The notes below the pieces were generated by a model, which saw only the letters and a program-made list of their open reading frames with translations, did no database searches and was not told the origin of the DNA. This document shows positions 11,301 to 34,994 of a DNA stretch of 34,994 bases, in pieces. The position numbers and the translations under genes are program-made. Position 1 is the stretch's first letter, and every line of letters starts with the position of its first letter. Source of the stretch: Bacteroidia bacterium (GTDB lineage: Bacteria; Bacteroidota; Bacteroidia; Flavobacteriales_D; Sanyastnellaceae); the NCBI GenBank assembly GCA_030427925.1, contig JAUICJ010000028.1, positions 1-34,994 on the forward strand, given 5' to 3'.

Positions 11301-11550
11301 CCGCCATCTGATACGTCCCAGCGGGGTAACTGTGGCTGAGCGTGTTGCCGGTGAACGTCTGAAGTGGCGATCCATCGCCCCAGTCGATGGTCACGTTGTT
11401 CGCTCCAGAGAACCTCACCGGCAGCGTTGTCGGGTTGTTGAAGGTCCATTCGGTGACGAAAGGAAGGGTGTTTTGGCCCCAAACCACGCCCTGAAGGCAA
11501 AGCAGGGCCACGAGCAGTCCCCACCGGCTGGCGCGCCGCTCAGTACGCAT
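8305..11550 (-). CDS. BspA-like surface protein with about 28 DUF285 repeats
   Basis: A 1081-residue exported protein. A signal peptide (basic MRTERRASRW, hydrophobic core, VVWGQ) is followed by a PKD-like beta domain (VTIDWGDGSPLQTF) in the first 100 residues. Then come about 28-29 tandem 25-residue units of the type PLxxWDVSxVTNMxxMFxxAxxFNQ, the DUF285/BspA-like leucine-rich family. The C-terminal 200 residues lack repeats and end in a fibronectin-like module (VVYVRAFAENAHG). No T9SS domain is obvious. DUF285 proteins are usually surface adhesins or binding proteins; the ligand is unknown. The start overlaps the stop of the upstream tail-fibre-like gene by 11 bases, so the two are probably co-transcribed and translationally coupled. 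Repeat units show a higher-order period of nine. Confidence 0.9.
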   Translation of the reverse strand: MRTERRASRWGLLVALLCLQGVVWGQNTLPFVTEWTFNNPTTLPVRFSGANNVTIDWGDGSPLQTFTGNTLSHSYPAGTYQMAVFCSADTPEDFGGFQVEWNYRGYLVDVLSFGTGEWSTFYRAFRGARNCAFSATDAPVFGPTCTNMERAFEDCDGLLDYDFTGWDVSTITHMPALFASANFTGDVSNWDVSQVVDMSEMFNSASAFNGDLSAWDVSSVESMYAMFYRAYAFNGDLSSWETTSLANMKQMFDQATTFNQPIGGFDVSNVTNMSYAFRQAYQFDQPLADWDVANVTNMHRTFENARAFNQDISGWTMSHVTNPSFMFNEAWAFNSPLAGWDLSSTTTIAGMFRGTRAFNQPLESWDVSHVTQFNEVFASARAFNQPLEGWDVGSAVNMASMFSNTYVFDQPLMGWDVSSVTQFTNMFNSAQAFNQPLTGWDTGSGLNMSIMFYRAYQFNSDVSGWDVSNVTTMRQMFDQAPVFNQPLNSWVTPSLIDVSYAFRNAYAFNQPMNNWDVSHVTNFQSTFEGARAFNQDINNWVVSSGTNFVYTFAGTWDFDQPLNGWDVGNGTNFNGMFLGTRGFNQPLNLWDTSSATNMTNMFQGAQVFDQDLSDWDVSHVTNFSGMFQSALVFNSPLNWGAKTGAATNMVNMFYRAYLFNQPIEGWDMSSVTTTQQMFLEASAFNQPLNNWDLSSVQDTRSMFQSAASFNQDLDAWTTPALVHCRNMFYAAVSFNGLLTNLDVSGVNNLQHMFNSAYAFNQPIGHWDVSSVTNLSYTFVHAHAFNQPLDEWDVSNVTTLYQTFTRADAFNEPLNAWDVSNVTDMRQTFYGAKAFNQPLSDWDVSSATNMLEMFYGALDFDQDLSGWDWNPVVYSRSFLGNAVLSPYHYDALLLSLAQDSLPNFGLVSSSKYSDIPEVVAARSAVVDKLYQVADQGVSEEVVDQIAISTGGGSTLDVPLAVDRYGNIGSGAGLTMAGVAITAGNTHAPIVHTLEPEVASGPVTLRGVLGTHGGQSLTALGFCFNDSGLPTVADDTLTVAPVHGLFTVEDPDLGIAPVVYVRAFAENAHGIVYGEPFTVALSL
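8900..11085 (-). repeat. 75-bp tandem coding repeat array (DUF285), superperiod 675 bp
   Basis: About 28 units of 75 bp, each encoding one 25-residue DUF285 repeat. Units three to eight counted from the N-terminus resemble units twelve to seventeen in order. The matching anchor sequence gaacat ends at 10875 and at 10200, exactly 675 bases (nine units) apart. Confidence 0.9.
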
Positions 11551-12913
11551 AGTAGAATTGGATGCGGTCGCCGGTTTTCATCTCGGCATTCCCATTGAAC
11601 GTTTCATCGTACACAACGTCAGTGGAAGTCACCGCATAGCAGGTGGCACTGAGGAGGATGCCGTTCCGGTACATGCGCACGACGGTGGTGCTGGCGGGCA
11701 GCTGGGACAATTGGAACGTCGTTTCGCCATCGGCGGCGACGGTGAACTCTTGCAAGATGTCCTGCGTGGCCGATCCGGCGCCCGCGATGGCCGCGTCGAC
11801 GTATTCGGTGGTGGCGAGCTTCGTCGAGTTGTCCGAAGCGGATTGCGTGACCGCCGTGGTGCCGGTGGGAAGGCTGGGGGTTCCCGTGAAGGTCGGGCTG
11901 GCGAGCGGTGCTTTCAAATCCAAGGCGGTTTGGGTGGCGGTGGAAACGGGTTTGTCCGCATCCGACGTGTTGTCCGCGTTGCCCAAACCCACCATAGCAG
12001 CGGAGATGCCAGAAACCGTGCCTGTGAAGACTGGGCTGGACAGGGGGGCTTTCAAATCCAAGGCGTTCTGTACCGCGGTCGAAGCGGGTTTGTCCGCATC
12101 CGACGTGTTGTCCGCATTGCCCAATCCGACCATCGATGCAGTAATGCCCGTAACGGTGCCCGTGAATGCTGGGCTCGCCAGTGGCGCCTTCAAATCCAGC
12201 GCAGTTTGGGTTGCCGTCGAAACCGGCTTGTTCGCATCCGACGTATTCTCCGCATTGCCCAAACCGACCATCGCGGCGGTGATGCCGGTGACGGTGCCCG
12301 TGAACGCCGGGCTCGCCAGCGGCGCCTTCAAATTCAGCGCAGTCTGCGCGGCCGTCGAAATCGGCTTGTCCGCATCCGATGTGTTGTCGGCATCCCCCAA
12401 ACCGACCATCGCGGCCGTGATGCCGGTGACGGTGCCCGTGAACGCCGGGCTCGCAAGCGGTGCCTTCAAGTCCAACGCGGTCTGCGCGGCCGTCGAAATC
12501 GGCTTGTCCGCATCCGACGTGTTGTCGGCATCGCCCAAGCCCACCATCGCCGACGTTATGCCCGATGCTGAGCCCGTTACTTCGAGGTCGCCACTGACCG
12601 TCAGGTCGCCTCCAATGGACGCCGCGTCCATGATGGTCAGGCTCTCCATGAGGGACTCCCCGGTGATTTGGAGCGATCCTGTGGAAATCGAAATGGCTTG
12701 GTAGGCCTGTACTTGGAGCAAATGATCGATGCTGTCTTGCATCTGAACAACTTGGGCAATGAGGGTGTCCAAACCGTCCGAAACGGCTTGTGGCGCGAGG
12801 GTTTGGTACTGCCGATTCCCCGATTGCGAATGCCGAATGACATCCTGCGCGGTTCCGGTGCTGGCCACCAGAGCGCCTGCAAGGAGCAAGGCTCCCGTAA
12901 TGATTTGCTTCAT
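11540..12913 (-). CDS. Phage-tail-fibre-like exported repeat protein
   Basis: A 457-residue protein with a clear signal peptide (MKQIITGALLLAGALVASTGTAQ). After it comes a SGNRQY...LDTL segment (residues 31-51), then beta-helix-like hexapeptides (GGDLTVSGDLEVTG). Five tandem copies of a 46-residue unit follow (VGLGDADNTSDADKPISTAA, then QTALDLKAPLASPAFTG), then KLATTEYVDAAI. The C-terminal domain contains VVRMYRNGILLSATCYAV and ends GDRIQFYYAY. The VGLGNxxNTSDxxKPxSTxxQ and ATTEYVD motifs are typical of phage tail-fibre shafts. The signal peptide and absence of other phage genes argue for a host surface fibre rather than a prophage gene. It overlaps the downstream BspA-like start by 11 bases and may form a stalk that displays or partners with that protein (inference). 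Confidence 0.85.
   Translation of the reverse strand: MKQIITGALLLAGALVASTGTAQDVIRHSQSGNRQYQTLAPQAVSDGLDTLIAQVVQMQDSIDHLLQVQAYQAISISTGSLQITGESLMESLTIMDAASIGGDLTVSGDLEVTGSASGITSAMVGLGDADNTSDADKPISTAAQTALDLKAPLASPAFTGTVTGITAAMVGLGDADNTSDADKPISTAAQTALNLKAPLASPAFTGTVTGITAAMVGLGNAENTSDANKPVSTATQTALDLKAPLASPAFTGTVTGITASMVGLGNADNTSDADKPASTAVQNALDLKAPLSSPVFTGTVSGISAAMVGLGNADNTSDADKPVSTATQTALDLKAPLASPTFTGTPSLPTGTTAVTQSASDNSTKLATTEYVDAAIAGAGSATQDILQEFTVAADGETTFQLSQLPASTTVVRMYRNGILLSATCYAVTSTDVVYDETFNGNAEMKTGDRIQFYYAY
11880..12544 (-). repeat. Five tandem 138-bp coding repeats (tail-fibre shaft type)
   Basis: Copies begin on the minus strand at 12544, 12406, 12268, 12130 and 11992, exactly 138 bases apart. 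The first four are nearly identical at protein level; the fifth diverges after its SPTFTGT segment. Confidence 0.92.
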
Positions 12914-13297
12914 TTTCGCTGATTTCTTCGTTTCGAATCTCCATCCAAATTACCTGTCGACGCTTATATATGTTTCATCGAAAAATGGGCGGGAGGTCGT
13001 TTCCTGAACACCTGACCGACAAAACCCGATATATCTATTTCATATTCAGCTACTTGACAAAACGTGACATCGAAAGCAATAGGCGATTTCATGACTCCTT
13101 TTTTCAATCCGACTCTCCCCGAGTCCTCGCGCACGGTTTCACCAAGACCTCCCGCCCTCACGAAATCAAATTACACCTGACAATCAGCTTGTTAGAAATC
13201 CATGACTCGAAAGCGATAGGCATAACATGATACCAAGTCATGTTCATAATAGGTGAACGGATGCCGATATATTGACTCCATCGGTGAACTTCGCGTC
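12914..13297. promoter_or_regulatory. Divergent intergenic region with direct and inverted repeats
   Basis: This 384-bp AT-richer region separates the surface-protein operon (-) from the regulator pair (+) and holds no credible gene. It contains a near-perfect direct repeat tcgaaagc(a/g)ataggc at 13070-13084 and 13207-13221. It also has a perfect inverted repeat AACATGA-N7-TCATGTT (13224-13230 and 13238-13244) 53 bases before the regulator start. These are candidate operator sites. No convincing TAnnTTTG promoter box was found. Confidence 0.5.
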
Positions 13298-14794
13298 ATG
13301 CTGTTCATTCTACTCGGGTTACTCCTACTCACCGAACTGCAATCGGGCGAAGAACAAGCTCGCTGGTCCGCCATGGACGAAGCCTTTACCGAGCACTTTG
13401 TTCCCTTCCAGAGCAATGCCATCGGGCTGAAGGACCACGCCATCTCGTTGCGCCGACAAGCCGTTGAAGCGGGTGACTGCGATTTGGCCTTGGTCGCCCA
13501 AAGCCTCCAACTCCGCGCATTGATGATGCTTCGCGAGGCCCCCTCCTTGGAATTGCTTTCCGCACAGCGCCTCGCTGACTGCGACCCCGACTATCCGCGG
13601 TTGGCGTACGACATCGGTTGTTTCCTCATCGCGCGGGATTCACTCGAAGCCGCTGAAGAACGCCTGCTTTTGGCTACCCGGATGCCCACATGGGCGAGCC
13701 ATGCCTGGAACATGATCGGTTCTGCACGCATGCAAAAGGGCGACCTGACTGGGGCTGCAACCGCTTGGGAACAAGCACACAAGACCACCTTGAAGCACCC
13801 CAACCCCAGCGTTTTGGTCAATTTGGGATTGGTGGCATGCCGGCAAAATGATTGGGCGAAGGGGCAGTATTGGTTCAATTTGGCCTGGGAAGCTCACCTC
13901 TGGAATCAAGAAACTCAAGACTACGTCTTCATCGAGGACATCGGTGGCGTGATCCAGTTGAACCTGCTTCGAACGGCGGTCAACTTGCGGGACCCCCGAG
14001 CCGCGGACGCCGCTTGGGCGCAAGTGGCGCCGACCGCCAGCACGACTTATCCCCTTCAACAGTTGCGGCCCATGCTGGATTATGCGCTGTGGCGAGGCGG
14101 CTTCGAAGGGGTCGAGTCCTTGGTCCGAATTTATGGCAACCAACTGCCGGAAGATTCAGCCGAAGTGGTGAACGTCCTGAATGACAGGGCCCTGTTGTTT
14201 TCGCCGTGGCTGGATTCCAGCGGATGGTCCCTCGAACGCGCGGTGGAGGTGCTGTCGACTGCAGAGCGCACCCCAGGCGCTTCCTTCGCTGTGATGAACC
14301 AAAGCAACTTGCCTCCCGAGCTCACGGTGAGCAAGGATGCCGTCAACCGCTGGAATCGGTGGATGCGCGGTGCGGTTGCCTTCTTGGCCTTGATGTGCTT
14401 GACTTCGATTGCCTTTTGGTGGCGCTTGGAACGCAAAAGCAAGGCCATCGAGCGCGCTTCCAATGCGGGGTTGGTGGAGCTGTTGCGCAGCATTTCCCTT
14501 GACCGTACGGCGACGTGGAGGGCGCCGCTGATCATCAACACCATGAGCGCGCGGCTTCAGCGTACGGTTTTGGACGGTCGGGTGGCCTCGCGCAAATTGG
14601 CCGGACTTTCCGAGCGCGATGTGCAAGTCCTGGAGTGGGTCATGAACGGGCAATCCTCTCAGCAAATCGCCGAGCAATTGGGCATCAGTGTCCAACGGGT
14701 TTACAACATCCGTTCCGACTTGCGGACGAAACTTGGCCTGCATGCCGGGCAGGATTGGTCCGATTTGGAACTCAACGCCAGCGAATCACCATGA
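13298..14794 (+). CDS. Membrane-anchored TPR-like regulator with C-terminal LuxR-type HTH
   Basis: The ATG at 13298 is chosen because it begins a signal-like hydrophobic segment (MLFILLGLLLLTELQSG); a GTG at 13253 would add 15 hydrophilic residues. The 498-residue protein has a helical TPR-like periplasmic region (for example AWNMIGSARMQKGDLTGAATAWEQA, residues about 140-165, and a VNLGLVACRQNDW unit). A single transmembrane helix lies at about residues 357-377 (AVAFLALMCLTSIAFWW), and a cytoplasmic LuxR/GerE-type HTH at about 437-482 (LSERDVQVLEW...QQIAEQLGIS...VYNIRSDLRTKLGL). The layout suggests a one-component sensor that reads an envelope signal and controls transcription. It is divergent from the fibre/BspA operon, the likely target by position. 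Its stop overlaps the next gene's start (ATGA), implying an operon. Confidence 0.82.
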   Translation: MLFILLGLLLLTELQSGEEQARWSAMDEAFTEHFVPFQSNAIGLKDHAISLRRQAVEAGDCDLALVAQSLQLRALMMLREAPSLELLSAQRLADCDPDYPRLAYDIGCFLIARDSLEAAEERLLLATRMPTWASHAWNMIGSARMQKGDLTGAATAWEQAHKTTLKHPNPSVLVNLGLVACRQNDWAKGQYWFNLAWEAHLWNQETQDYVFIEDIGGVIQLNLLRTAVNLRDPRAADAAWAQVAPTASTTYPLQQLRPMLDYALWRGGFEGVESLVRIYGNQLPEDSAEVVNVLNDRALLFSPWLDSSGWSLERAVEVLSTAERTPGASFAVMNQSNLPPELTVSKDAVNRWNRWMRGAVAFLALMCLTSIAFWWRLERKSKAIERASNAGLVELLRSISLDRTATWRAPLIINTMSARLQRTVLDGRVASRKLAGLSERDVQVLEWVMNGQSSQQIAEQLGISVQRVYNIRSDLRTKLGLHAGQDWSDLELNASESP

Positions 14795-15459
14795 GCAATC
14801 CGTCCGACGTCACGCAAGCGCCTTGGGCCCTGCGCCCGTTTGAGGCCGATATGGCAAGCGCCTTCCATTGGACGGAGGCCGATTCGGCGGGCATGAAGCA
14901 GTGGCGTGCGTTGCGAGAAGGTTGGCCCAACACCGCCCAACCGTTCGCCGAGTCCTTCGATACGCCCCTGGTGAACGCGACGTCCTGGTCCTGGTGGTGG
15001 CAAGGGGATGAAGCGTTGGTGACCGTTTGTTTGGCTCTTGGATTCCTGGCGCTCGGGGCCATTGCTTGGTTTCGAAGCCGGCAACTCCGGCGACTCCACA
15101 TCCCGTCAACCAACCTCAGCATTTGGCGAGCCCTCCGAGCGTTGAACGATTCCGCGGCGGGAATTCCAGCGAATGAGGCGATCGTCCAAGCAGCCTACCT
15201 CGAAGTCCGGAATCGGTTGCTGCCCGAATCGGCCGCGGCCGCAGAATGGGAAGGCCTGGACTTGTCGTCCCGAGAAATCGAGTGCGCCGATTTCATCCTG
15301 CAGGGATTGGGCCCGCAAGAAATTGCAGAGATGATGCACTGCACTCCACGGCACGTCTACAACATCCGCTCGAGCATTCGGAAGAAATTGGACCTGCCGT
15401 CGGAGGAAAACCTGATGAAAATCTTGCTGCTGCGCAAGCAGGGACATCGGCGCCACTGA
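14791..15459 (+). CDS. Short membrane-anchored LuxR-type HTH protein
   Basis: A 222-residue protein whose ATG overlaps the upstream stop codon in an ATGA junction. About 72 N-terminal residues without recognised domains precede one transmembrane helix (about 73-93, ALVTVCLALGFLALGAIAWF). A basic stretch (RSRQLRR) follows, which predicts N-terminus out and C-terminus in. The C-terminal HTH at about 156-204 (LSSREIECADFILQG...PQEIAEMMHC...HVYNIRSSIRKKLDLP) is LuxR/GerE-like and shares the VYNIRS recognition-helix sequence with the upstream gene. It looks like a shortened paralogue that has lost the TPR sensor region. It may dimerise with the upstream regulator or set its activity; this is inference. 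It is convergent with the DUF4625 gene. Confidence 0.8.
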   Translation: MSNPSDVTQAPWALRPFEADMASAFHWTEADSAGMKQWRALREGWPNTAQPFAESFDTPLVNATSWSWWWQGDEALVTVCLALGFLALGAIAWFRSRQLRRLHIPSTNLSIWRALRALNDSAAGIPANEAIVQAAYLEVRNRLLPESAAAAEWEGLDLSSREIECADFILQGLGPQEIAEMMHCTPRHVYNIRSSIRKKLDLPSEENLMKILLLRKQGHRRH

Positions 15460-20995: not shown

Positions 20996-23026
20996 TCAAT
21001 CCTCAAGACAACGAACGGAAAGCCCGAAGCGAGAGTTGGCTAAGCCCCTAAAAACACTGGCACTGTTGTTAGAAAGCTGGCGATACACAGCGTTGCTACC
21101 GTCGAGTGACGAACTCCAATAGTAGCCGATGACGTCAACATTGCCGAACTCCCCAACGTGGTTGCGTCTGCCGTTCGGCAAACCTGAAAAACCACTGCTA
21201 TTGTCGCCATCCCACAAATTTGACTTCATCTTCGTGGCAGCGACAGATTCTCCTCCCAAGGCAGTCGTTAGCGTCGTCCAGTCGTCATCTGTTGGCACAT
21301 GCCACCCCGATGGGCACAACTTCCCCGTGTTGACCGCGTACCAATTGTACAAGCGGCCGTAAGCCGCCAAGTTTGTAGCTTCATTCGCACTTCCCTCATC
21401 GTAAATCGTCGTCGCACCTGTGGTATTCGACGACCAAGCAGTAGCGTTCAGTCCGCTAGAGATTGCAGTTTCATCGTTGTAATTGTCGCTGCGCAAATTC
21501 TCTGCAAACCAGCACTGGTCTTCGATTTGGACAGTCGAGTATTCATGACCATCGAACGTCACGGTCTCAACACCGCAGTTGAAGGCATTCGGGTCAGAAA
21601 ATTCCAAGGTATCGCCGAACATGTACCGATCCCCAAATTGGTCAGTTCCGCTTTTGGCATAGGCCGAGTAATACAGTGTCTGGGTGGGCAACGTGTCCAG
21701 CAGGAATTTTCCAGAACACGTTCGAAGATCATTGAAGTCCAAGGAATCTGCCACTGCTGCGACCAACGTGTCTGAAACGCTCAAATCAGGCGATGTTCCG
21801 ATGACAAACCCCACTTCGGTCACCATCTCGCCACAGTAATACATGTCGCCATGAAGGACCATGGTGCCCGGAACCGCCTCTGCAGCCTCGGTTCGCACAT
21901 GCGGGAAATCGTGAAAGTCGCTCCAATTCGCCGCCAAATCTCCCGAAAGCAAGATGTTGTTCGCGATGTACTGATCGGCGGCCGTCGCGCGTGCAGGGTA
22001 CCGCGACCGGAAATCAGCGGCCCATTCCACGTAGTATGGGTCGTCGAACATTTCTGCAGCCCCCTTCAGGTAACAGGACACCGTGACTCCGTGGTTGTCG
22101 TTGACGTCCAAGTAGCCGGTGTTTGGATCCGGCAGGCCAAAGACCGAATACGTATCCCGATGGTTCTTCGCATAAAACGCAACGGAACCCGGAACCTCCT
22201 CTCCCGCAAAACTCAGCGCATTCATGCTCACTGTTGTCTCGTGATCGGTAAAGTTCCCATACTGCGACGTCACCAACCACGATTCCTTCTCAATCCAGCC
22301 CCCCTCTGGAAGGCGGCGCATCACAGTAGGAACCTCAGGCTCCGCCAAGGCAAGCGCAAAAATGGCGCTGTCCGGGATGGCCCAACCGGGAGGGCAAAGT
22401 TTGCGCTCATCCACAACCGCATGCAGGTTGTAATGGTATCCGTAATAGCTCTCAGGTTGGAGTCCTACCCCTTCAACCGATGTGCCGACATAGGGGTGCT
22501 GGCTTCTTGCCGGCTCCGATGTCACAGCCCAGCTCTCGTCATCGTCTGAATTGATGAACACAATGGAGTCGCCATTGAGGAAGGCACCCGTGTGAAGGGT
22601 TGTGATGTAACAGTACGATGCGCTGCTCCCACAAAGCTCCCGGTCAGAATAGTCGTAATGGTTGTAAAACACGCCTGATCCAGTGCCTTGGAACTTGGAA
22701 CATGGCGCGCACACGCCGCTGTTTGCACTTGCACGGGCTTGAGCAAGGAGTACACGCAGGTTGTAGATGGACGATTCCAGTTCGAACCCATCGTACTGCT
22801 GGTACAACCGATTCGGCGTGGATTCCAATTGGCGGTAGTCAACGATGATCGGTGTGCCGGTAATGGCTTCGATGGTGTCCTCGTACGCTTCGATTTGTCT
22901 GAGCATGTCGAGGTAGTCGAATTCCAAACGAACCTGTCCGTTGCCCGCACAACACGTGTCCACTTGAGCAGCCACTTGCCCCGCCGCGACGAAGAGCAAA
23001 GAAAAATAGACAAATAGGTGTTTCAT
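20996..23026 (-). CDS. FISUMP-domain exported protein
   Basis: The ATG at 23024-23026 is chosen because it starts a signal peptide (MKHLFVYFSLLFVAAGQVAAQ); the frame remains open about 65 codons further upstream without one. The 676-residue protein has an N-terminal helical region, then a degenerate FISUMP-like segment (ELCGSSASYCY, KLCPPGWAIPDSA). A fibronectin-like linker (VGFVIGTSPDLSVSD, YYSAYAKSGTDQFGDRY) follows. A complete C-terminal FISUMP domain closes the protein ([52 protein letters not shown], ending FGLSVRCLED). FISUMP domains are lectin-like folds of surface proteins with unproven ligands. The gene is divergent from a TPR/LuxR membrane regulator. Its 3' end abuts a decayed copy of its own linker. 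Confidence 0.85.
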   Translation of the reverse strand: MKHLFVYFSLLFVAAGQVAAQVDTCCAGNGQVRLEFDYLDMLRQIEAYEDTIEAITGTPIIVDYRQLESTPNRLYQQYDGFELESSIYNLRVLLAQARASANSGVCAPCSKFQGTGSGVFYNHYDYSDRELCGSSASYCYITTLHTGAFLNGDSIVFINSDDDESWAVTSEPARSQHPYVGTSVEGVGLQPESYYGYHYNLHAVVDERKLCPPGWAIPDSAIFALALAEPEVPTVMRRLPEGGWIEKESWLVTSQYGNFTDHETTVSMNALSFAGEEVPGSVAFYAKNHRDTYSVFGLPDPNTGYLDVNDNHGVTVSCYLKGAAEMFDDPYYVEWAADFRSRYPARATAADQYIANNILLSGDLAANWSDFHDFPHVRTEAAEAVPGTMVLHGDMYYCGEMVTEVGFVIGTSPDLSVSDTLVAAVADSLDFNDLRTCSGKFLLDTLPTQTLYYSAYAKSGTDQFGDRYMFGDTLEFSDPNAFNCGVETVTFDGHEYSTVQIEDQCWFAENLRSDNYNDETAISSGLNATAWSSNTTGATTIYDEGSANEATNLAAYGRLYNWYAVNTGKLCPSGWHVPTDDDWTTLTTALGGESVAATKMKSNLWDGDNSSGFSGLPNGRRNHVGEFGNVDVIGYYWSSSLDGSNAVYRQLSNNSASVFRGLANSRFGLSVRCLED

Positions 23027-23648
23027 GGGGATAAAACTAGTATCACTTCCTTTGTAGTCATGTGAATTCACATAATCCCACGCATCATAAAATTTATCCA
23101 AAACCCAATCACTCATTATAAACCATTGATTAACAGCACCATGGAATGCACACTCTACTACGCTCAAACGACATTGAAAATGACCCTTGCAGCGAACTCG
23201 GCACATGCTAACCTTATCCAACCAGCGCTATCCAATCAGTGACTGGCGAAAAAACCGATGTAGCCCCGAGTCCCCAACACCGAATCCACCCTGCAACAGC
23301 CTTGCTGTGAACCCGATCATCGTCCAGGATGATCCACGACCACGACATGGCAACTTCCAGAAACGGCAACAATTGAAGAACCTGCGCAAGGGACAGACTG
23401 CCAACCCAAGTCGTCCGACCGACCAACGTCCTTTAAGTCGGAGGTTTCACAGGGCACACCCCAACGCCTTCCGCGCCCGTGCGCTCAGCATTCCACCCAG
23501 TCCGTGAACCTTCCGTGAGAAAGACCTCCTGTTTTGGCAAATTTCTCAGATTCAACTTATAGGAAGCTGAAGTCCTCTCAGGGTTTGGAAGTCCGCCACC
23601 ATCTTTGTGCGCATGTACACTGCGTCACCCCACGTTTCAAGAACGCTC
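23027..23648. promoter_or_regulatory. Long divergent intergenic region with a 14-bp palindrome
   Basis: The region of 622 bases between the FISUMP gene and the third regulator is AT-rich near the FISUMP start. It holds a perfect palindrome ATGTGAATTCACAT at 23060-23073, 34 bases upstream of the FISUMP start codon, a candidate operator. The remainder (23150-23600) shows no credible gene: the frames open there lack family features and look like noise. Confidence 0.45.
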
Positions 23649-25268
23649 ATGCAACATCAGGTTTTACACAAGGTGGTGCGCACGGTGATGGTCGCATGCG
23701 CCCTCTCGATGGGACTTGCCCCCCGTTATGCTTGGGGCACTCCCATTTCGGAGGAGGCCTTCACGGACAGCCTGTTGCTCGGCGAGTGGAAGCACCACCC
23801 CGAGCGGCTCGATTCGCTCGCCTCCCTGCTCGGTGACGACGGCATCACGCTGACGTGTGAACGCATCCAGCGCATTCGTTCGGAAATCGCATTTGAATGC
23901 ATGGTCGGCGGGAATTCGGACTACCTGACGGAATTGGTTGCAACGGAAGACCCGTGCATGCCGCGATCCGGCGGTTTTGCCTATTGCATGGCTTCCATCC
24001 ATTTCAACCGGAACAACTATCCCGAGGCCGCATTGCAATATCAGCGGACGCTGAGCCTTCTTGAGGCCGGACATTATTTGGCGGTCAATGCGCAGTTCAA
24101 CTTGGCTGCGAGCTTGCATCATATGGGGAAAAACGACGCAGCGATTGAGCTGCTCAAGGAACTGGTGTTGCCCGATTCGAAGTGGAGCGACCACGTTTCC
24201 CTCCAATCGGTGACGTTTCGCAACGTCATCAAAATCAACGCCGCAGGGATGATGGTATCGAACCTTCAACACCACGACGCGCTCGACATCTTGAGCGAAG
24301 TGGACCGGGAGTCCCTGAATCCGTATTGGCGAACACTCGGCGACTGCAATCGCTACATGGCCTTCAAGGGGGCTGGGCAATTTGAACAGGCGGATTCACT
24401 TTGGCTGGCGAACATTCAATTCATTCCGTTCAACGACTTGCCTGAAGGGGTGCTGCGCAAAACCATGGATTCCGTGTTGGCTACGAACCAAAAAGACTAC
24501 CTCGACGGCATGCGTTCCGCCATGGCTTCCGGTCGCCTTTCCGTGGAAAACTTGCCCCCCCATTGGTACGCCGCCCTTTTGGCCTCCAACCTGACGGAAG
24601 AACAATTCGAGCAGAACTGGGAATTGCTGCGGACAAATACCGAAGAGAAGCGACAGGAACTGCAAGCGAGCCTGGCATATTCAGTCAACCCGATGAACGG
24701 CGATTCGCTCAATGACATCCAAATGCACCTCGACCGGGCCAGTGAGCGCATCGCCAATTGGCAATGGATTGCCTTGATGATGCTGATCATCAGCGCGGGG
24801 ATTGCCCTGATTTGGTGGAGCAAGGTGCGGCTTAAGCAGCGCACCATCAATGCCGCCATGGCGCAGGTGGAGAGCGAATCGAACCCGTTCAAAACCGAGC
24901 GCCTTGCGGAACAGCCGATGCACGTCTCCTTGAATGACATTCGATCGCTGCACGAAGCCATCATCAAAGGAAGCCGCATCGGCGAGGCGTTGAGGGTGGT
25001 GCGCAAATTGGAAATCCTCCAAGATGAACACGAAAAAGAGCAGCAGGACATGGCCTTCGATGCCATTCCCGGCATTGACAGCCTGACGCCCTTGGAATTG
25101 ACGGTGTTGAGGCTGGCCGCGCGCAGCATTCCGACGAAAGAAATGGCGATTCAACTGGCGTTGAGCGTCGGGCACATCAACAACGCGCGGAGTTCGATCC
25201 GGAGCAAGTTGGAAATCCCTTCCACCGAGCGGTTGAGCACCTGGCTGCACATGGCCATGCTTCAATGA
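23649..25268 (+). CDS. Membrane-anchored TPR-like regulator with C-terminal HTH
   Basis: The start at 23649 gives a plausible signal segment (MQHQVLHKVVRTVMVACALSMGLA); an ATG at 23613 or a GTG at 23607 is also in frame. The protein is about 539 residues. It has a TPR-like periplasmic region (AVNAQFNLAASLHHMGKND), a transmembrane helix near 371-392 (IALMMLIISAGIALIWW), a charged linker, and a C-terminal LuxR/GerE-like HTH near 478-525 (LTPLELTVLRLAARSIPTKE...INNARSSIRSKLEIP). It has the same architecture as the gene at 13298 and a related recognition helix (xRSxxRxKL). It is divergent from the FISUMP gene, its most likely target by position. The signal it senses is unknown. Confidence 0.8.
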   Translation: MQHQVLHKVVRTVMVACALSMGLAPRYAWGTPISEEAFTDSLLLGEWKHHPERLDSLASLLGDDGITLTCERIQRIRSEIAFECMVGGNSDYLTELVATEDPCMPRSGGFAYCMASIHFNRNNYPEAALQYQRTLSLLEAGHYLAVNAQFNLAASLHHMGKNDAAIELLKELVLPDSKWSDHVSLQSVTFRNVIKINAAGMMVSNLQHHDALDILSEVDRESLNPYWRTLGDCNRYMAFKGAGQFEQADSLWLANIQFIPFNDLPEGVLRKTMDSVLATNQKDYLDGMRSAMASGRLSVENLPPHWYAALLASNLTEEQFEQNWELLRTNTEEKRQELQASLAYSVNPMNGDSLNDIQMHLDRASERIANWQWIALMMLIISAGIALIWWSKVRLKQRTINAAMAQVESESNPFKTERLAEQPMHVSLNDIRSLHEAIIKGSRIGEALRVVRKLEILQDEHEKEQQDMAFDAIPGIDSLTPLELTVLRLAARSIPTKEMAIQLALSVGHINNARSSIRSKLEIPSTERLSTWLHMAMLQ

Positions 25269-25556: not shown

Positions 25557-27917
25557 TCATTCAAGTTCATCCATCATGCAACGAACAGAAAAACCGTGGC
25601 CTATGAGGTTGCTTCCCCTGTAAACGTCGTCGACACCCATAGTGAGCAGACGGGTCCAAGAGCCAGAACCAGAAGACGTGGAACTCCACAACGCGCCATA
25701 GACGTTCACCTGTGTGTAGGCTCCAGTGGGAGAGCGGTAGCCGCCTGGCACAACCGATAACCCACTGCTGTTCGTACCATTCCAATTGGGCCCCCACGTA
25801 TCCGAGGACTTCATCTGTGCCCCTTGGTCCGTCCCGCGAGAATTCGAGAGGTCTGCATCCGAAGGCGACATCCCCAGCCCAATTTCAAGGACCTTCCAAT
25901 CTTCATCGGATGCAACGTGCCAACCCGCAGGACACAACTTGCCCGTTTCGACCGCGTACCAATTGTACAGCCGCCCGTACAACGCTGCGTTGTTTTCATC
26001 TCCGTCGTAAACAGCGACCGCTCCCAGAACATCCCCACTCCAAGCCGTTGCGTCCAAATCACTCGGAATCGCCTCATCATCGTTGTACAACAAGGACTGT
26101 AAATTCTCTGCGAACCAGCACTGGCTGCCGATTTCCACCGACGCGTAATCGTATCCTTGGTAATTCAAGGGATCGCCGCAGCTGAATGCAGCAGCCGTCG
26201 TGGTGAAACTCAACGTATCGCCAAATGCCGTCCCCGCACCATTCTGAGCAAACGCAGAAAAGTAGTACGTGGTGCCAGCTGTCAGCCCCGCCAGCGCTGC
26301 TGAGAACGAACCGCTGGTCGCGCTCCCCACCAAATTCGAGGCATCGTTCAAGTCCGAAGCTTGTCCCCAACGGAACCCCGTAGCCGTTACGGCGTCACCT
26401 CCATCACCGTCTACGGTTCCGTTGAACGTGACGCCGGACTCCGTCACATTGGTTTCAGCCGTGGTGGTCACCGACGGAACGGACGCATTGGTCCCATCGT
26501 CCATCAGGCATCGCACGGAAAGGCCGAACGACAAAGGCAAAATATTCCCCGCCAATAGGCCCGCATCCGTGTAAGCATACCTACAATTTAAATCCGAACT
26601 GCTCAAGGAAGTAGCGGGCGAACTCCACCAATAGGCATGGCTTGTCGATAAAATGAAGGCAGCGGCTCCCGTTCGCGCCCCACTGATCACACCCGAAAAT
26701 CCGCTTTCATTCGAACCGTTCCAATCGGGATCCACCCGCTTCATTTTGAGGCCTGCCACATCAGACCCATCTAAAAAATCGGTCAACTCGACCCACTCCC
26801 CATCCAATGGAACGTGCCACCCGGAAGGACACAGTTTGTCGGAGTTCACTGCATGCCCATTGTAGAGCAATCCCTTTGCGGCGACATTGGCAGCGTCGTC
26901 ATTCAATGCGACCAATGCGCCTTCTGAAGTGGCTGTCCACTCGGAGACCGTCAAACCACTCGCAATCGCCTCATCGTCTCGGTATGAGGTGGCTTGTAAA
27001 TTTTCTGCGAACCAGCACTGTTCACCGATTTGGACGGTTGCGTAATCGTATCCTTGGTAGGCCAACGCATTGCCACAGGTGAATGCGGTTTCAGGCGCAC
27101 CTCCCGATCCGTTAATGACCGCAATCAACGAATCCACGGTCGCCATCAATTGGGCCAAAGCCACGCGTTCGGCAGCCGTGAAATACAGGTTCGCCTCCCC
27201 TTCAGCCAATTCGTCTGAGGTCAAGTTGCTCAAGCTGCTGATGCGGCCGTTGATGACATCCGCAACGACGATGCTGTCCGCATGGATTGTACCGCCAAAC
27301 GTAGCGTCACCGTCCACGTTGAACAAGGCATCGAAATCGACGTTCGCTGTGACGTGCAAGCTGTCCCCGAGCGTCGTCAACCCCGAAACATGGAGCGTTT
27401 CGCCGATCGCAACCGCCTTCAAAACACGCAACGAGTCGGCGAATTCAACGAACCCCGCCACCCGAAGGGAATCCTCCAACTGCGTCACCCCGGTGATGTT
27501 CAGCCGTCCCAAGAGGGCTGCGTCCTTGTTCAGGACGAGGCTGTCTGCCGTCACCGTACCCGAAGCTGCGAGGTCGCCAATGCCTGAAGCACTGAATCCG
27601 TTGAACGCCACATCGACGCCAGGACTCCCTCCATTTGCGAGCACATCGGACCAAGTCAGCGAGCTCGCTTGCAAGGAGCGGGCGAACAGGGTGTCCAAAT
27701 TCGATTGCAACGCCGGCAAGCTCATTTCGAGGTAAACCCGATTGCCCGAAGTTTCGGAGACCACCGCGTTTTGTTGCCCCCAAAGCATCGTGGTAGCCGC
27801 CACCAGTGCAACGGCCATTCCGCCCCTCATCCATCGGGACAGGGGACGTTTCGTTTTCAAATCGTTGACGCGGGCTCCTCCCGGAGTCCAATGCGCGCCC
27901 AAACCAACATGCTTCAT
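25557..27917 (-). CDS. Exported protein with tail-fibre-like N-terminal half and two FISUMP domains
   Basis: A 786-residue protein from the ATG at 27915-27917, or 757 from a Met at 27828-27830 that starts directly at the signal peptide (MRGGMAVALVAATTMLWGQQ). After the signal comes SGNRVY...LDTL (57-77), spaced exactly as in the fibre-like gene at 12913. A beta-helix-like stretch of repeated DSLxVxG units follows, and then LAEGEANLYFTAAERVA, a motif common in phage tail fibres. A first FISUMP domain ([35 protein letters not shown]), a fibronectin-like linker ([16 protein letters not shown]) and a second FISUMP domain ([32 protein letters not shown], ending GFSVRCMMDELE) complete it. It is probably a surface fibre displaying lectin-like tips. 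No regulator gene is adjacent. Confidence 0.85.
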   Translation of the reverse strand: MKHVGLGAHWTPGGARVNDLKTKRPLSRWMRGGMAVALVAATTMLWGQQNAVVSETSGNRVYLEMSLPALQSNLDTLFARSLQASSLTWSDVLANGGSPGVDVAFNGFSASGIGDLAASGTVTADSLVLNKDAALLGRLNITGVTQLEDSLRVAGFVEFADSLRVLKAVAIGETLHVSGLTTLGDSLHVTANVDFDALFNVDGDATFGGTIHADSIVVADVINGRISSLSNLTSDELAEGEANLYFTAAERVALAQLMATVDSLIAVINGSGGAPETAFTCGNALAYQGYDYATVQIGEQCWFAENLQATSYRDDEAIASGLTVSEWTATSEGALVALNDDAANVAAKGLLYNGHAVNSDKLCPSGWHVPLDGEWVELTDFLDGSDVAGLKMKRVDPDWNGSNESGFSGVISGARTGAAAFILSTSHAYWWSSPATSLSSSDLNCRYAYTDAGLLAGNILPLSFGLSVRCLMDDGTNASVPSVTTTAETNVTESGVTFNGTVDGDGGDAVTATGFRWGQASDLNDASNLVGSATSGSFSAALAGLTAGTTYYFSAFAQNGAGTAFGDTLSFTTTAAAFSCGDPLNYQGYDYASVEIGSQCWFAENLQSLLYNDDEAIPSDLDATAWSGDVLGAVAVYDGDENNAALYGRLYNWYAVETGKLCPAGWHVASDEDWKVLEIGLGMSPSDADLSNSRGTDQGAQMKSSDTWGPNWNGTNSSGLSVVPGGYRSPTGAYTQVNVYGALWSSTSSGSGSWTRLLTMGVDDVYRGSNLIGHGFSVRCMMDELE
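26175..26480 (-). repeat. Fibronectin-like linker module, copy shared with the giant gene
   Basis: This segment encodes [19 protein letters not shown] and GDTLSFTT and is strongly similar in DNA to 29467-29750 and 30365-30660 in the giant DUF285/FISUMP gene. Confidence 0.8.
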
Positions 27918-28276
27918 GCTCCTAAGTTTTAAGTGTTCGTGTGTTTAAGTGGCCGAATCGCCCGCTGAACTTGAACTCAGCCCCGACGAAACAACCCCAC
28001 GAAATTCAACCAGAAGCCCTGGAATCACCCGTTACACAAAGGTTCCTGTATTGTTCATTCTCTCATGTTCACCTATTTGCAAACCGTGCGCCCGTTGAGG
28101 CATTCCCGCTGGATAACGGCTGAAAACGCGGCCCAACCAGAACCTTGAAATCGCAGGTCAACTCCAGGAAATTGGCATGACCCGCCCCGAGGGCACAACG
28201 CAATTCAACGCAATCTTCACGGAGTTTGCTTGGTGGGGATGATAGATTGGGCGGAAAAATCCATACTTGTTAAATC
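27918..28276. other. Intergenic region, no gene seen
   Basis: This region of 359 bases lies between divergent genes. Next to the minus-strand start there is an AT-rich block with repeated ACTTAAA on the minus strand (27924-27949). A GGAG sits only two bases before the ATG, too close for a normal ribosome-binding site. No hairpin terminator or small gene was recognised in the rest. Confidence 0.4.
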
Positions 28277-28869: not shown

Positions 28870-31800
28870 TCAGTCGACGTCCTTGATGCACCGAATGGAT
28901 TGCCCCTCCGCGGGATTGCCCGTTTGGCCAAAAAGGTTCGAATTGCCCGTCACGAGCCTGCCCGTCGAGCCGTCATCGGCCACGTACCAGAAACCTTCGT
29001 CGCCAATCAATTGGTACGTTCCATCTTGCAGACGCTGGCCTCCGGGAAGACCAGAAAACCCAGATGAATTGGTTCCATCCCAACTTGGCACATCGTCCTC
29101 TGAAGACTTCAGGCTCGGCCCAAGCTCATCCTGAACAATCGCTCCGATGTAATAAGCGAGCGTGCCCCATTCGGTCGATCCCGGCACATGCCAGCCGACC
29201 GGGCACAACTTCCCGGTAAGCACAGCGGGGTAATTGTACAACCGACCGTATATCGCCACATTCGACTCGTCGTCGCCGTACGCAGCGACCGCCCCAGAGG
29301 TGGTTCCTCCCCATTGAGCATCGCTCAAATCAGTCGGAATCGCTGAACCATCGTTGTACAGGGTGGATTGCAAATTCTCTGCGAACCAACACTGGCCGAC
29401 GCTTTCAATCGTCGCGTAGTCGTAGCCTTGGTAAGATACCGCATCCCCGCAATTGAACAGAGCCGCCTGAACTGCAGGGGTGGTGAAGCTCAGCGTGTCG
29501 CCGTGTGCCGTGCCTTGACCGTTCGTGGCAAACGCTGAGAAGTAGTACGTCGCGCCATCCGCAAGCCCCGTCAACGAGCCCGTGAACGTTCCGGTGGTCG
29601 CGCTACCCGCCAAATCCACGGCATCGCTCAAGTCCGAAGCTTGACCCCAGCGGAAACCCGTCGCGGTTACTGCATCGCCGCCGTCCCCCTCAACGGTTCC
29701 GTTGAGTGTCGCGCCCGTCAGCGACAAGTCGCTTGCCGCAACGGTGGTAACCGAAGCGGTCGCCGGGTCCTTGATGCATCGGATGGAATTCCCATCTTTG
29801 TCGAAGCCGAAGCTGCTCGATACGCTGTTGTCGCTGAGGGACATGCTGAAATTCAGGGAGTAGCCTGCTGTGCTTGGATGGGGCGTGGTGGTCCACCATT
29901 TGCCTGTGAGTGAACCGTAGATGAAGGTCCCAAACTGTTGACGGGTACCGCCTGGCAAAGCCGAAAAACCGCTCGTGTTGTCGCCGTCCCAAGCGGGGGT
30001 GTCCGACTGCGAAGATTTCAAATCCAAGGCCGCAACATTTGCACCGCCAAACTCAGCAAGCAGCGCCGTCAACTCATCGCTCGAAGGCACATGCCAACCC
30101 GATGGGCACAACATGCCCGTAGCGACTGCTGGACCATTGTACAACATGCCGAACGTCGTCACATTCGAAACGTCATTGTTGTATGCGCTGCGCGCACCCA
30201 CGGTCGTGTTATACCAGTCCGAATTGTTCTCCACGAGAGCAATTCCATTCCCATCGTTGTAGTTCTCGCTGCGCAGGTTGTCCACAAACCAGCAATCCGA
30301 TCCGATTTGGACGGTTCCGTAATTGTAGCCTTGGTAACCCAGCTCGTCGCCACAGCTTACAAAAACCGCCAGCGCAGGGGTGGTGAAGCTCAGCGTGTCG
30401 CCGTGAGCAGTGCCGAGACCATTGGTTGCAAACGCCGAGAAGTAGTACGTCGTGCCATCCGCAAGCCCGGTCAACGAGCCCGTGAATGCACCACTGGTCG
30501 CGTCACCCGCCAAATCCACGGCATCGCTCAAGTCCGAAGCCTGTCCCCAACGGAAACCCGTAGCGGTCACCACGTCGTCCCCGTCGCCATCAACGGTTCC
30601 GTTGAGCGTCGCACCCGAAAGCGACAAGTCGCTTGCCGCAACGCTCGAAACCGATGGCGGATTCGGACACATCCCCCAAATGGGTTGGGTGAAGCCCGAG
30701 CCAAATTCAGTGGGTTCCGTCGCAATTTGATTCACACACCACGCACTGAGGTTTTGGGTGAACGCGTCCGCTTGATTGAACATTCTCGACATGTTCGTCA
30801 CGCTGCTCACGTCCCAATTCCCAATGTTCTGATCGAAAGCCAGTGTTTTGCGGAACATGTCTTCCATTGAAGCCACATTGCCCACATTCCAAGCACCGAT
30901 GTCCTGATTGAATGCCAACGCATTGTCGAACATTTTAGCCATCGTGGTCACGCTGCTCACATCCCAGCCCCCGATGGACTGATCGAACGCCAAAGCCAGG
31001 TAGAACATGTTTTCCATATCCGTCACACCGCTTACCGTCCACGTCCCGATGTCTTGGTTGAAATCATCTCCTCCTTGGAACATGCCGTGCATGGAAGTCA
31101 CATAGGTCACATCCCAATCCCCGATGGCCTGATTGAATCGATCGGCAGACTTGAACATTTCCATCATGGAGGTCACATTGCTCACATTCCAATCCCCAAT
31201 GTCCTGATTGAACACCGAAGCAGCCGAGAACATCCTTTGCATGTCGGTCACTTTGCTCACATTCCAGGTCCCGATGGGTTGATCGAAACTCCAATCCCCG
31301 GCGAACATGAATGAGATATCGGTCACATTGCTCACATCCCACCCCCCGATGGGCTGATTGAACGTTGTCGCACTGTAGAACATCCCTTGCATGTTCGTCG
31401 CACCGCTCACATTCCAGTTCCCGATGTTCTGATTGAAGAAGGGGGCGAGGTAGAACATGAACGACAGGTCCGTCGCACTGCTCACATCCCAGGTCCCGAT
31501 GTCCTGATTGAACGCTGTAGTCCTTTCGAACATGCCGTGCATCGAGGTCACACTGCTCACATTCCAACCCCCGATTGGCTGATTGAATGTGGATTCGTAG
31601 AACATGTCTTCCATATCCGTCACATTGCTCACATTCCACCCCCCAATGGCTTGGTCGAACGCACTTGCGCTTCTGAACATGTTCCTCATGGTGGTCACGC
31701 TGCTGACATCCCAGTTCCCAATGGCCTGATCGAAGACCGAAGCCCCGTAGAACATGCTGGACATATCGGTCACGTTGCTCACATTCCAAATCCCGATGGC

Positions 31801-34800
31801 TTGGTTGAACGCATCCGCTTTGATGAACATGCCTTTCATGTTCGCCACGTTGCTCACATTCCAACCGGTGATGTCCTGGTTGAATGCCGCTGCATTGGAG
31901 AACATGTCGCCCATGTAGCTCACACTGCTCACATCCCACCCCCCGATGTCCTGATTGAATGCATCCGTTTTGGAGAAGAGGCTGTTCATCGAAGTCACAT
32001 TGCTCACATCCCAACCCCCGATGTCCTGATTGAACGCCGCAGCCTCAAACAACATGATGCCCATATCGGTCACACTGCTCACAATCCACCCTCCGATGTC
32101 CTGATTGAACACCTCAGCTCCGGAGAACATGCGTTGCATCGTGGTCACGCTGCTCACATCCCAAAGAGAGAGGTCCTGGTTGAAAGCCGTTGCATCGTAA
32201 AACAGCCCTTGCATGTCCGTCACATTGCTCACATCCCAGCCCCCGATGTTTTGGTCGAAAACACCCGCACGCCTGAACATGTCCCTCATGGCCGTCACAT
32301 TGCTCACATCCCAGCCCCCGATGTCGTCATTGAACGTGGCCTTGTTGTAGAACAACATGTTCATGTCCGTGACGGCAACGGTATTCCAGTCTGAAATGTG
32401 CCCATAGGTTGCTACCGCAGAAGCCTCATCCGACACCCAAAGGTTGACGGCATCTTGGATGTTTCCATTCGTGATGGGAGTCAACGTATTGAATGACAGA
32501 GTATCGCCGAACGATGTGCCCGCAGCATTTGTGGCAAATGCACTGTAGTAATAGGTGGTTGACAACGTCAAATCCGACAACACCAGCTCAATCGCAGTGC
32601 TGCCCTCGGTCGTGTCAACGCCCACGGTCACCCCATCGCTCAAATCCGACTGCAAGCCCCAGACGAACCCTTGAGCGGTGATGGAATCCGCTGCGAACGT
32701 TGCGTTCAGGGTTCCACCATTCAATCCCAGCTCATCAGCTGCATTCGTCGCGATCCCGGGCGTTGTCAACAGCGAGAGGGTGTCGCTGTAGCGGTACACG
32801 CCGCCCCTTTCGGCGTACGCATTGAAGTAATGGACCGCTCCGGAGTTCAATCCAACCAGCGTGTCGACAATGGGACTGGTCCCTCCGGTATTTGAACCCG
32901 TTTGGGGAGAAGTCATCGCGGCGTCCGAGGCCCAAGCGAACCCGGAACTTTGCGGCCAGCTGCCAATGAAACTCGCACTCAACACCGCACTCGTGTCAGA
33001 GAGCACGACGACTGAATCCAGTGCAATGGGACACGTCCCCCAAAGGGGTTTGGTGAAATTGTAGCCAAAACTGCTCGGCTCCGTCTCAATTTGGTGCACA
33101 CACCATTCACTGAGGTCTTGGGAGAACGCCGGAGCTTGAGAAAACATGAACGACATTTGGGTCACGCTGCTCACATCCCAGCCACTGATGTCTTGATTGA
33201 ACGCGGTCGTGAGGTTGAACATGTTCGTCATCGAGTTCACACTGCTCACATCCCAGCCACCGATGTCCCGGTTGAATGCACTCGCTTGGAACATGCCGTA
33301 CATGGTGGTCGCATTGGACACATCCCATGCCCCGATGTCCTGATTGAAGGACGTCGTACCGTAGAACATGCTGGTCAAGACGGTCACGCTGCTCATGTTC
33401 CAATTCCCGATGTTCTGATCGAACGCCAACGCTTCGGAAAATGCGCTCTGCATGTTCGTCACATTGCTCACATTCCAAGTGGTGATGTCGGCATTAAAGG
33501 CTAACGCTCTGCCGAATATGCCCAGCATAGTCGTCACATTGCCCACATTCCAACTCCCGATGTTCTGATTGAATACCGAAGCATCATAGAACATGTTGAC
33601 CATCGTGGTCACATTGCCCACATTCCAGTTGCCGATGTCCGCATTGAACGCCGAAGCTTCCTGGAACATTCTTAGCATCGTGGTTACATTGCTCACGTTC
33701 CAATTGCCGATGTCCCCATTGAACGCCGAGGCCCCTTGGAACATGCCCTTCATCGTGGTCACATTGCTCACGTTCCAATTGCCGATGTCTCCATTGAACG
33801 CCGATGCGCCTTCGAACATGCTTTCCATCGAAATCACGCTGCTCACATTCCAGTCCCCGAGGTCATAATTAAAGGCCGAGGCGTCTTCGAACATGCCTTC
33901 CATCGTGGTCACGTTGCCCACGTTCCACGCCCCGATGTCTTGATTGAAGGCCGCAGCCCCTTTGAACATTTCCTTCATGTTCGTCACGCTGCTCACATCC
34001 CATCCCCCGATGTTCTGATTGAACAACGGCACATTCAAGAACAACATCACCATGTCCGTTACATTGCTTACATCCCAAGCACTGATGTCCTGATTGAAAA
34101 CATCTGCTTTTTGAAACATGAACGCCATTTGGGTCACGTTGCTCACATTCCAATCCCCGATGTACTGGTCGAACGCATCCGCATCACCGAACATGTTGGT
34201 CATCGATGTCACGCTCGACACATCCCAACCTCCAATGTCCTGATTGAAGGCCCGCGCATCGCCGAACATTCCGGTCATGACTTCCACGTTGCTCACATCC
34301 CAATCCCCGATGTCCTGATTGAAATCCCAGGCCCCAGCGAACATCAACAACGCCTTTTCGAAGTTGCCCACATTCCACATGCCGATGTCCTGATTGAAAA
34401 CGCGGGCCCACATGAACATTTTCTCCGCATTCGTCACATTGCTCACATCCCAATTGCTGATGTCGTCATTGAATGTTTCCTTGCCAAAGAACAACGAGTT
34501 CATGTCCGTGACTGCCCCCGTTTTCCAATCTGAAATGTGCCCATAGGTTGCTGTCGCAGAAGCCTCATCCGACACCCAAAGGTTGACGGCCGCATGGATG
34601 TTCAGGTCCGTGATGGGCGTCAATGTGGTGAAGGACAGGGTATCGCCGTACGACGTACCCGAAGCGTTCGTGGCGAATGCACTGTAATAGTAGGTCGACA
34701 ATCCCGTCAATCCCGACAACGCATACTCAATCGCGGTGCTGCCACCGGTCGTGTCGGCGGAAACGCTCAAGCCATCGCTCAGATCCGCCTGCGCGCCCCA

Positions 34801-34994
34801 AACAAACCCCTGAGCGGTGATGGAATCGGCAGAAAAGGTGGATTTCAGTGTGGCGGATTCCGCAGCGAGATCCGCCGCTTGTTCCGTGGTGATGCCCGGA
34901 GTGGTGAGCAGCGCCAGCGTGTCGCCGTAAGTGATGCCCGAAGCGTTGGTCGCGTGTGCGCTGAAGTGATGCACCGTACCCGGAATCAATCCCG
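28870..34994 (-). CDS. Giant DUF285/FISUMP surface protein, 5' end outside window
   Basis: The frame is open through the right edge and no signal peptide is present, so the start lies beyond the window; at least 2,040 residues are visible. Order from the N-terminal side: a fibronectin-like module ([20 protein letters not shown]), a DUF285 array of about 19 repeats ending ...[20 protein letters not shown], and two fibronectin-like modules. A second array of about 22 repeats ends ...[20 protein letters not shown]. Then come a linker, a FISUMP domain ([35 protein letters not shown]), a second near-identical linker and a final FISUMP domain ([29 protein letters not shown], ending SIRCIKDVD). Repeats follow IGxWNVSNVTxMxxMFxxAxxFNQD. 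It is probably a long surface adhesin with lectin-like C-terminal tips; ligand unknown, and no T9SS domain is visible. Confidence 0.87.
29467..29750 (-). repeat. Linker module, C-terminal copy
   Basis: Strongly similar in DNA to 30365-30660; both encode [24 protein letters not shown] sequence and share long identical runs around the region reading ccgccaaatccacggcatcg. Confidence 0.85.
30365..30660 (-). repeat. Linker module, second copy
   Basis: Partner of 29467-29750 in the same gene and of 26175-26480 in the neighbouring FISUMP gene. Confidence 0.85.
30665..32483 (-). repeat. DUF285 array 2 (about 22 units of 75 bp)
   Basis: Bounded by a conserved leader ([20 protein letters not shown]) and a conserved end ([21 protein letters not shown]). 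Most units are exactly 25 codons; one near 31590 is 24 codons. Confidence 0.9.
33029..34622 (-). repeat. DUF285 array 1 (about 19 units of 75 bp)
   Basis: Same leader ([20 protein letters not shown]) and same end ([21 protein letters not shown]) as array 2. Neighbouring units near 33590-33830 are very alike ([12 protein letters not shown] repeated), which points to recent unit duplication. One unit near 33290 has 24 codons. Confidence 0.9.

Follow-up and report, generated by a model that had tools for sequence, protein, structure and literature searches.

Membrane-tethered one-component regulators such as ToxR/TcpP and CadC combine a periplasmic sensor, a TM segment and a DNA-binding domain in one protein, while local regulators in Bacteroidota include ECF sigma/anti-sigma systems with SusCD and hybrid two-component systems with PULs. 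The regulators described here (the R family) differ from ToxR/TcpP and CadC in their LuxR-type HTH and TPR-like sensor, in occurring also as two-HTH fused and two-gene forms, and in numbering more than 20 paralogues, most of which lie beside surface genes. In this last respect they resemble the ECF sigma/SusCD and hybrid two-component/PUL systems, which are likewise expanded families with each member beside its presumed target surface genes, but the regulator class and the cargo are different and a motif is common across the modules. The TPR-TM-AraC regulators of the same lineage also join TPR, TM and HTH next to NTD/FISUMP genes; they differ in having an AraC-type HTH and in being upstream and co-directional rather than divergent at the four loci seen.

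The C-terminal HTH is the one found in GerE/LuxR-NarL-FixJ regulators (PF00196). According to the available part of one report, NarL prefers inverted heptamers with a 2-bp spacer (7-2-7) (PMC4549865), and the site at 23059-23074 of the present locus has this geometry; the R family differs from the NarL-FixJ type in its predicted exported TPR-like part and TM anchor, and its other candidate sites differ in spacing. Fib_succ_major (FISUMP) domains are given in the available part of another report as DGR targets elsewhere (PMC4159848). Those targets are like the genes studied here in carrying a C-terminal Fib_succ_major domain on an exported protein, but no reverse transcriptase was found here: DGR diversification was rejected on the basis of zero PF00078 matches in the 99.5%-complete source genome, the domain being found in 3 of 14 control genomes. 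Our literature search found no paper linking FISUMP with LuxR, and for TPR-LuxR surface control it returned nothing relevant by title or abstract start.

R2 and the surface genes beside it

The window, meaning the whole stretch of DNA analysed, is an entire contig of 34,994 bases (G000:C8), and its ends are therefore assembly ends. The source genome (G000) comprises 2.95 Mb in 51 contigs, with completeness given as 99.5%. Gene calls and the signal-peptide rule were custom and simple. The local HMMs for GerE and DUF285 performed weakly, returning 12 and 0 proteins, and coordinates were therefore taken from genome-wide profile searches, with 31 GerE, 60 FISUMP (57 over cut-off) and 36 DUF285 matches in G000, together with 39 matches to a profile built from the regulators' own HTHs.

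The earlier note had assigned the gene at 23649 the TPR-like/transmembrane/LuxR-HTH layout of the gene at 13298 (R1) and had placed it divergent from a FISUMP gene, and both readings were borne out. The regulator, R2 (23649..25268, plus strand), has a signal sequence, a TPR-like part, one TM segment and a C-terminal GerE/LuxR HTH; its GTG ORF is 23607-25268, and the signal-peptide-like start at 23649 gives a protein of 539 aa. The GerE domain at residues 477-528 scored 22.7 bits by hmmscan of the protein (cut-off 23.5) and 27.0 bits, above the cut-off, in the genome search, whereas several Pfam TPR models matched at E 2.5e-5 to 2.4e-3, every one below its own cut-off. The single strong hydrophobic segment (373-391) is followed by more K/R residues than precede it. 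An AlphaFold2 model built from two sequences was poor (mean pLDDT 38.6, pTM 0.21), all-helical and most confident in the HTH. R1 has the identical layout at 23% identity.

The divergent FISUMP gene (20996..23026, minus strand) matched Fib_succ_major at 145.6 bits and TIGR02145 at 127.1 bits. The gene caller placed its start at 23116, and a signal-peptide-like sequence, MKHLFVYFSLLF..., begins at 23026, which leaves a gap of 622 bp to R2 when signal-peptide-like starts are used for both genes (23026 and 23649). The 3' neighbour of R2, absent from the earlier sequence reading, is a second FISUMP gene convergent with it (25557..27917, minus strand; Fib_succ_major 227.7 bits) that carries the N-terminal domain NTD, described below, at 27522-27746. 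The FISUMP proteins have the Fib_succ_major domain and a signal peptide by the custom rule, and their surface location is predicted. Relatives of the 25557-27917 protein, at 39-46% identity over the best segment, occur on three IMG/VR viral contigs (L188, L189 and L190).

Farther right, a giant DUF285/FISUMP gene (28870..34992, minus strand) is cut at the contig edge. Contigs also end within FISUMP, DUF285 or other repeat surface genes at both ends of the window (1 and 34994) and in C3, C14, C41, C43, C48 and C50; with so many ends inside such genes, the assembly evidently breaks there, and some partners are visible only as fragments. A FISUMP domain match with an in-frame TAG stop at G000:C24:110189-110731 is possibly a broken copy.

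Pairing of regulators and surface genes across the genome

The regulator set comprised 23 loci in G000 (R1-R23). Left out were two response regulators (C17 and C11) and a C50 protein of 946 aa that on visual inspection did not resemble the TPR set. R20 came from a protein search, and R22 and R23 are matches to profile A2 rather than GerE matches, R22 having been seen beside a FISUMP gene before its inclusion in that profile. Pfam at E 0.01 found TPR_2 in 20 of the 23 and GerE in 17, and neither a receiver nor an autoinducer domain. In a simple analysis of hydropathy and charge, K/R residues were more numerous after the TM segment than before it in 19 regulators, equal in 4 and fewer in none; R11 (1.27) and R16 (1.49) had weak TM segments only. 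Judged by hydropathy and charge only, the regulators resemble the membrane-tethered one-component type, with the HTH predicted to lie inside the cell.

The earlier note had suggested a recurring module of an envelope sensor and a cognate surface protein, to be checked by a genome-wide count of TPR-TM-LuxR genes and their nearest divergent gene. That count showed enrichment of surface partners: by an automatic rule (FISUMP/DUF285, or a product of 300 aa or more that has a signal peptide and no TM) a partner was assigned to 12 of the 23 regulators and, in 17 control stretches, to 10 of 257 genes (for the 12, Fisher p 1.5e-9), the counts being approximate because the gene calls and the signal-peptide rule are simple. 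FISUMP/DUF285 genes numbered 0/280 in the control stretches. With inspection by eye, 15 of the 23 (R1-R5, R8, R9, R12-R15, R17, R18, R21 and R22) had an upstream divergent FISUMP, NTD, tail-fibre-like or large secreted gene, across gaps of 110-800 bp. The three judged by eye were R5, R8 and R21, two partners being contig-end fragments and the rule having failed to detect one signal peptide; R3 itself and the partner of R15, missed by the gene caller, were placed by ORF or domain coordinates. When R20, R22 and R23 were omitted, 14 of 20 were paired, or 11 of 20 by rule. Among the remaining regulators, R6 and R7 are convergent with a FISUMP gene and R16 is co-directional with one, and a divergent surface gene was not found for R10, R11, R19, R20 or R23.

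By this genome-wide count, the module of a membrane regulator and a surface-protein gene recurs more often than chance, and it was also found at 7 of 11 regulators (by eye) in a second species of the same genus (G001) and in another genus (G013). The term "cognate" held in part: adjacency is non-random, but the pairs are neither strictly private nor always divergent, and a candidate operator recurs across the loci.

Single-HTH, two-gene and fused forms

At six G000 loci (R1, R3, R5, R12, R14 and R23) a second small HTH gene lies directly downstream of the regulator, and at five (R6-R9 and R18) both HTHs are within one protein of 737-808 aa. R6 and the G001 relative of R8 have a further hydrophobic segment after their first HTH, so that both HTHs would sit on the same side of the membrane; the simple hydropathy rule did not detect this segment in R7, R8, R9 or R18. 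In the short protein R21, two HTHs accompany a single N-terminal hydrophobic segment. The two-HTH forms may act as dimers, and the natural single-HTH, two-gene and fused versions would be useful for studying the pairing of tethered LuxR proteins on DNA. L106:4004-4888 (C47) and L138:1482-2309 (G001:C34) encode short proteins that consist of little more than two LuxR HTHs, each divergent from a giant secreted gene (3332 aa in the case of C47).

A candidate operator in the divergent regions

Hexamers were counted in the 15 G000 divergent regions versus 26 control divergent regions. The top 6-mer, ATGTGA, occurred 19 times in 10 of the 15 regions (2.8 expected). The pattern TA[TG]GTGAA had 12 sites in 10 of the 15 regions versus 0.3 in 200 shuffles and was present in 0 of the 26 control divergent regions; in 338,300 control bases it had 13 sites, none of them intergenic. 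Since [TG]GTGAA[CT] was also enriched in the control divergent regions (11 sites versus 2.8 in shuffles), only the TA-containing form was kept. The motif was absent from the divergent regions of R8, R9, R15, R17 and R18, and R7 alone has TAKGTGAA among the eight regulators that are not in the divergent set. About half of the regulators carry the candidate operator. From -350 to +60, TAKGTGAA was found in 8 of 32 FISUMP/DUF285 gene rows (one gene being listed twice) versus 1 of 87 control genes. In G001 and G013, TA[TG]GTGAA had 3 sites in 2 of 8 regions.

The candidate operator, WTAKGTGAAY, which we propose as new for these loci, had 18 matches in the 2.95 Mb of G000 versus 14 for the reversed pattern, so the total number is ordinary and only the placement is unusual. 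Thirteen of the 18 are upstream of these regulators or of FISUMP genes, and 5 are inside genes away from these loci. Nine of the 13 are in-sample because the pattern was derived from regions of the same genome; the 4 outside the discovery set are C4:1156, C8:28067, C10:20891 and C10:26359. With the pattern fixed, G001 had 17 matches. Seven fall inside genes, two of these being FISUMP genes. Among the 10 in non-coding DNA, 6 lie upstream of a regulator or FISUMP gene, 1 lies upstream of a TPR-TM gene fragment and 3 are elsewhere. There was no match at the G013 module, both matches in that genome being inside genes. In three further genomes, G004, G023 and G037, no motif match lay within 5 kb of any of the 28 FISUMP matches listed out of 31 (by eye), and the GerE matches were in frames of at most 379 aa, which fits a link between the motif and the regulators.

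At the R2 locus the candidate operator is a 7-2-7 inverted repeat, CATGTGA-AT-TCACATA (23059..23074), 33 bp upstream of the FISUMP start at 23026 and including a perfect 14-bp palindrome (23060-23073). A minus-strand match at 28067..28076, outside the motif-discovery set, is upstream of the second FISUMP gene (25557-27917), and a plus-strand match at 13249..13258 is 40 bp upstream of the signal-peptide start of R1 (13298), overlapping the longer GTG ORF of R1 that starts at 13253. The matches at C8:13249 and C8:23066 count as non-coding only on the premise that the signal-peptide starts are correct. The candidate operator also lies upstream of some FISUMP genes that have no divergent regulator (C4, C8:25557 and C10:21036). 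The 7-2-7 geometry is clear at 23059-23074 and at C10:20891, and elsewhere there are other spacings, direct repeats or a single half-site. The distance of the motif from the nearest start ranges from about 20 bp to more than 250 bp.

Relatives and possible exchange of cassettes

BLAST-level relatives of R2 (E up to 1e-15) were found in 1 of 59 relative genomes besides G000, namely G001. Its seven divergently paired regulators, each opposite a secreted, NTD or FISUMP gene, are on C144, C4, C344, C14, C34, C63 and C32. The G001:C266 regulator is convergent with a five-domain FISUMP gene, and for those on C378, C244 and C57 neither a divergent nor a convergent surface partner was seen. In G013 the only module seen was a two-gene regulator divergent from an NTD gene. 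No relatives of R2 were confirmed among named genome contigs; a search with three second-HTH proteins returned one locus, JALQTD010000022.1 (Flavobacteriales bacterium isolate DAH.10), which is probably G001.

Cassettes were compared by reciprocal best hits within the compared stretches of G000 and G001. Kept pairs include C45/C32 (regulator 49%, partner 75%) and C18/C14 (regulator 48%, the partner being matched via a C18 fragment plus a window gene); for C47/C34 the partner alone was compared (69%). Elsewhere, differing cassettes are next to identical conserved flanking genes: the conserved gene beside R3 (G000:C12:2105-5453) adjoins another regulator with FISUMP genes in G001:C266:1-10728, and the flanks of R12 (G000:C36:242773-249571) are near other cassettes in G001:C344, with one gene between, and in C4.

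FISUMP domains were found in 41 of the 60 genomes of the order searched (G000 included). NTD, an N-terminal domain of ~80 aa common to twelve G000 surface genes, 8 of which directly adjoin a regulator, was found in 10 of 399 genomes of the order (G000 included) and 3 of 70 genera. The seven NTD loci examined in genus g5 (L218-L224) had no HTH-profile hit and no motif match, L222 being cut by its contig upstream; similar neighbouring genes surround the NTD gene in several of the seven species. The TPR-TM-AraC regulators form a second class, seen at four NTD/FISUMP loci (C21, G001 C400, C52 and C90; genes L118:16027-17586, L141:3850-5457, L226:2472-4232 and L228:918-2471).

A proposed mechanism and its rivals

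We consider it somewhat probable that R2 is a membrane-tethered transcription factor of a lineage-expanded family, that it and the divergent surface gene make up a cassette, and that its HTH binds the shared half-site in a feedback arrangement. The signal sequence would export the TPR-like sensor to the periplasm, the one TM segment would anchor it, and the LuxR/GerE HTH would face the DNA. Its most likely targets are TA[T/G]GTGAA half-sites (TATGTGAA/TAGGTGAA) in the intergenic region shared by the two genes, bound by a homodimer or, at the two-HTH loci, by a dimer of paired or fused HTHs. Such binding would set how far the surface gene is transcribed, and often the regulator's own gene too, and the exported part would most likely read the surface protein, its export or the envelope state, which would close a feedback loop. 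Cross-talk between cassettes is probable, since the half-site is common to many of them, and a common candidate operator favours cross-wiring over private pairing of one sensor with one adhesin.

The main rival assigns the TGTGAA element to a different factor, such as a CRP/FNR-family protein or an alternative sigma factor, which would coordinate surface genes and regulators together while the TPR-LuxR proteins bind elsewhere. CRP half-sites resemble TGTGA and are paired at a spacing of N6, the G001:C378 pair reads TGTGA-N6-TCACA, and at the remaining sites the spacing and orientation of the second half-site vary. However, most sites do not have the N6 arrangement and two are 7-2-7, and the matches cluster at regulator-holding loci, with none near the FISUMP matches listed in G004, G023 and G037. 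We therefore regard control by such a factor as unlikely, if the most serious of the alternatives.

The regulators and surface genes might also be variable-region genes that accumulate together, adjacency then having no bearing on control, as could be argued from the different cassettes beside identical flanking genes in two species, from regulators without a surface neighbour and from NTD/FISUMP genes without a regulator. The preference for divergent orientation with 110-800 bp between the genes, the motif within those gaps and the kept pairs such as C45/C32 and C18/C14 make this very improbable. We give equally little credence to a choice among adhesins in which modules repress one another, leaving each cell with one or few surface proteins expressed at any given moment. 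It would suit the many paralogous surface domains (57 FISUMP over cut-off), the many paralogous regulators, the common motif and the site at 23059-23074, whose position 33 bp from the start codon would be repressor-like, but nothing in the sequence shows mutual exclusion and no reverse transcriptase for DGR was found. The motif also lies at variable positions (about 20 to over 250 bp from the start), which makes activation as likely as repression.

Returning to the tethered-regulator reading, the arrangement suggests a network that may control the surface coat of the cell. Its most extended form would be a surface-coat choice network of interchangeable TPR-LuxR sensor and surface-protein cassettes, cross-wired via one operator, with exported proteins feeding back and cassettes exchanged between species beside fixed flanks; we regard this form as rather doubtful. 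FISUMP domains are common in the order. The finding provides a concrete regulator class and a candidate operator that can be tested by gel shift, and with them a model of a surface regulon, open to testing, for a Flavobacteriales lineage that is uncultured.

The R1 locus and the left edge of the window

R1 (13298..14794, plus strand; GerE 44.2 bits, weak TPR) overlaps by 4 bp a second TM-HTH gene (14791..15459, plus strand), which has a GerE score of 30.7 bits in its longer ORF and a TM segment near residue 76. Divergent from R1 is a tail-fibre-like repeat gene (11540..12913, minus strand) with matches to 28 PHROGs families, several of them tail fibre, and the locus also holds a DUF285 repeat surface gene (8305..11550, minus strand; 793 bits, 9 stretches). 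At the left edge, a secreted metalloprotease-like gene with Reprolysin models (7..5721, plus strand) is cut by the contig end. No overlap of the C18 and C8 contig ends was found, and their adjacency rests on protein homology: residues 21-129 of one G001 protein (C14:3367-6936) match the C18 end fragment (G000:C18:132952-133369) and residues 134-1190 match the window gene 7-5721, so the two contigs probably abut. The double-HTH regulator R8, on C18, is thus probably located just left of the window and divergent from gene 7-5721, its probable partner.
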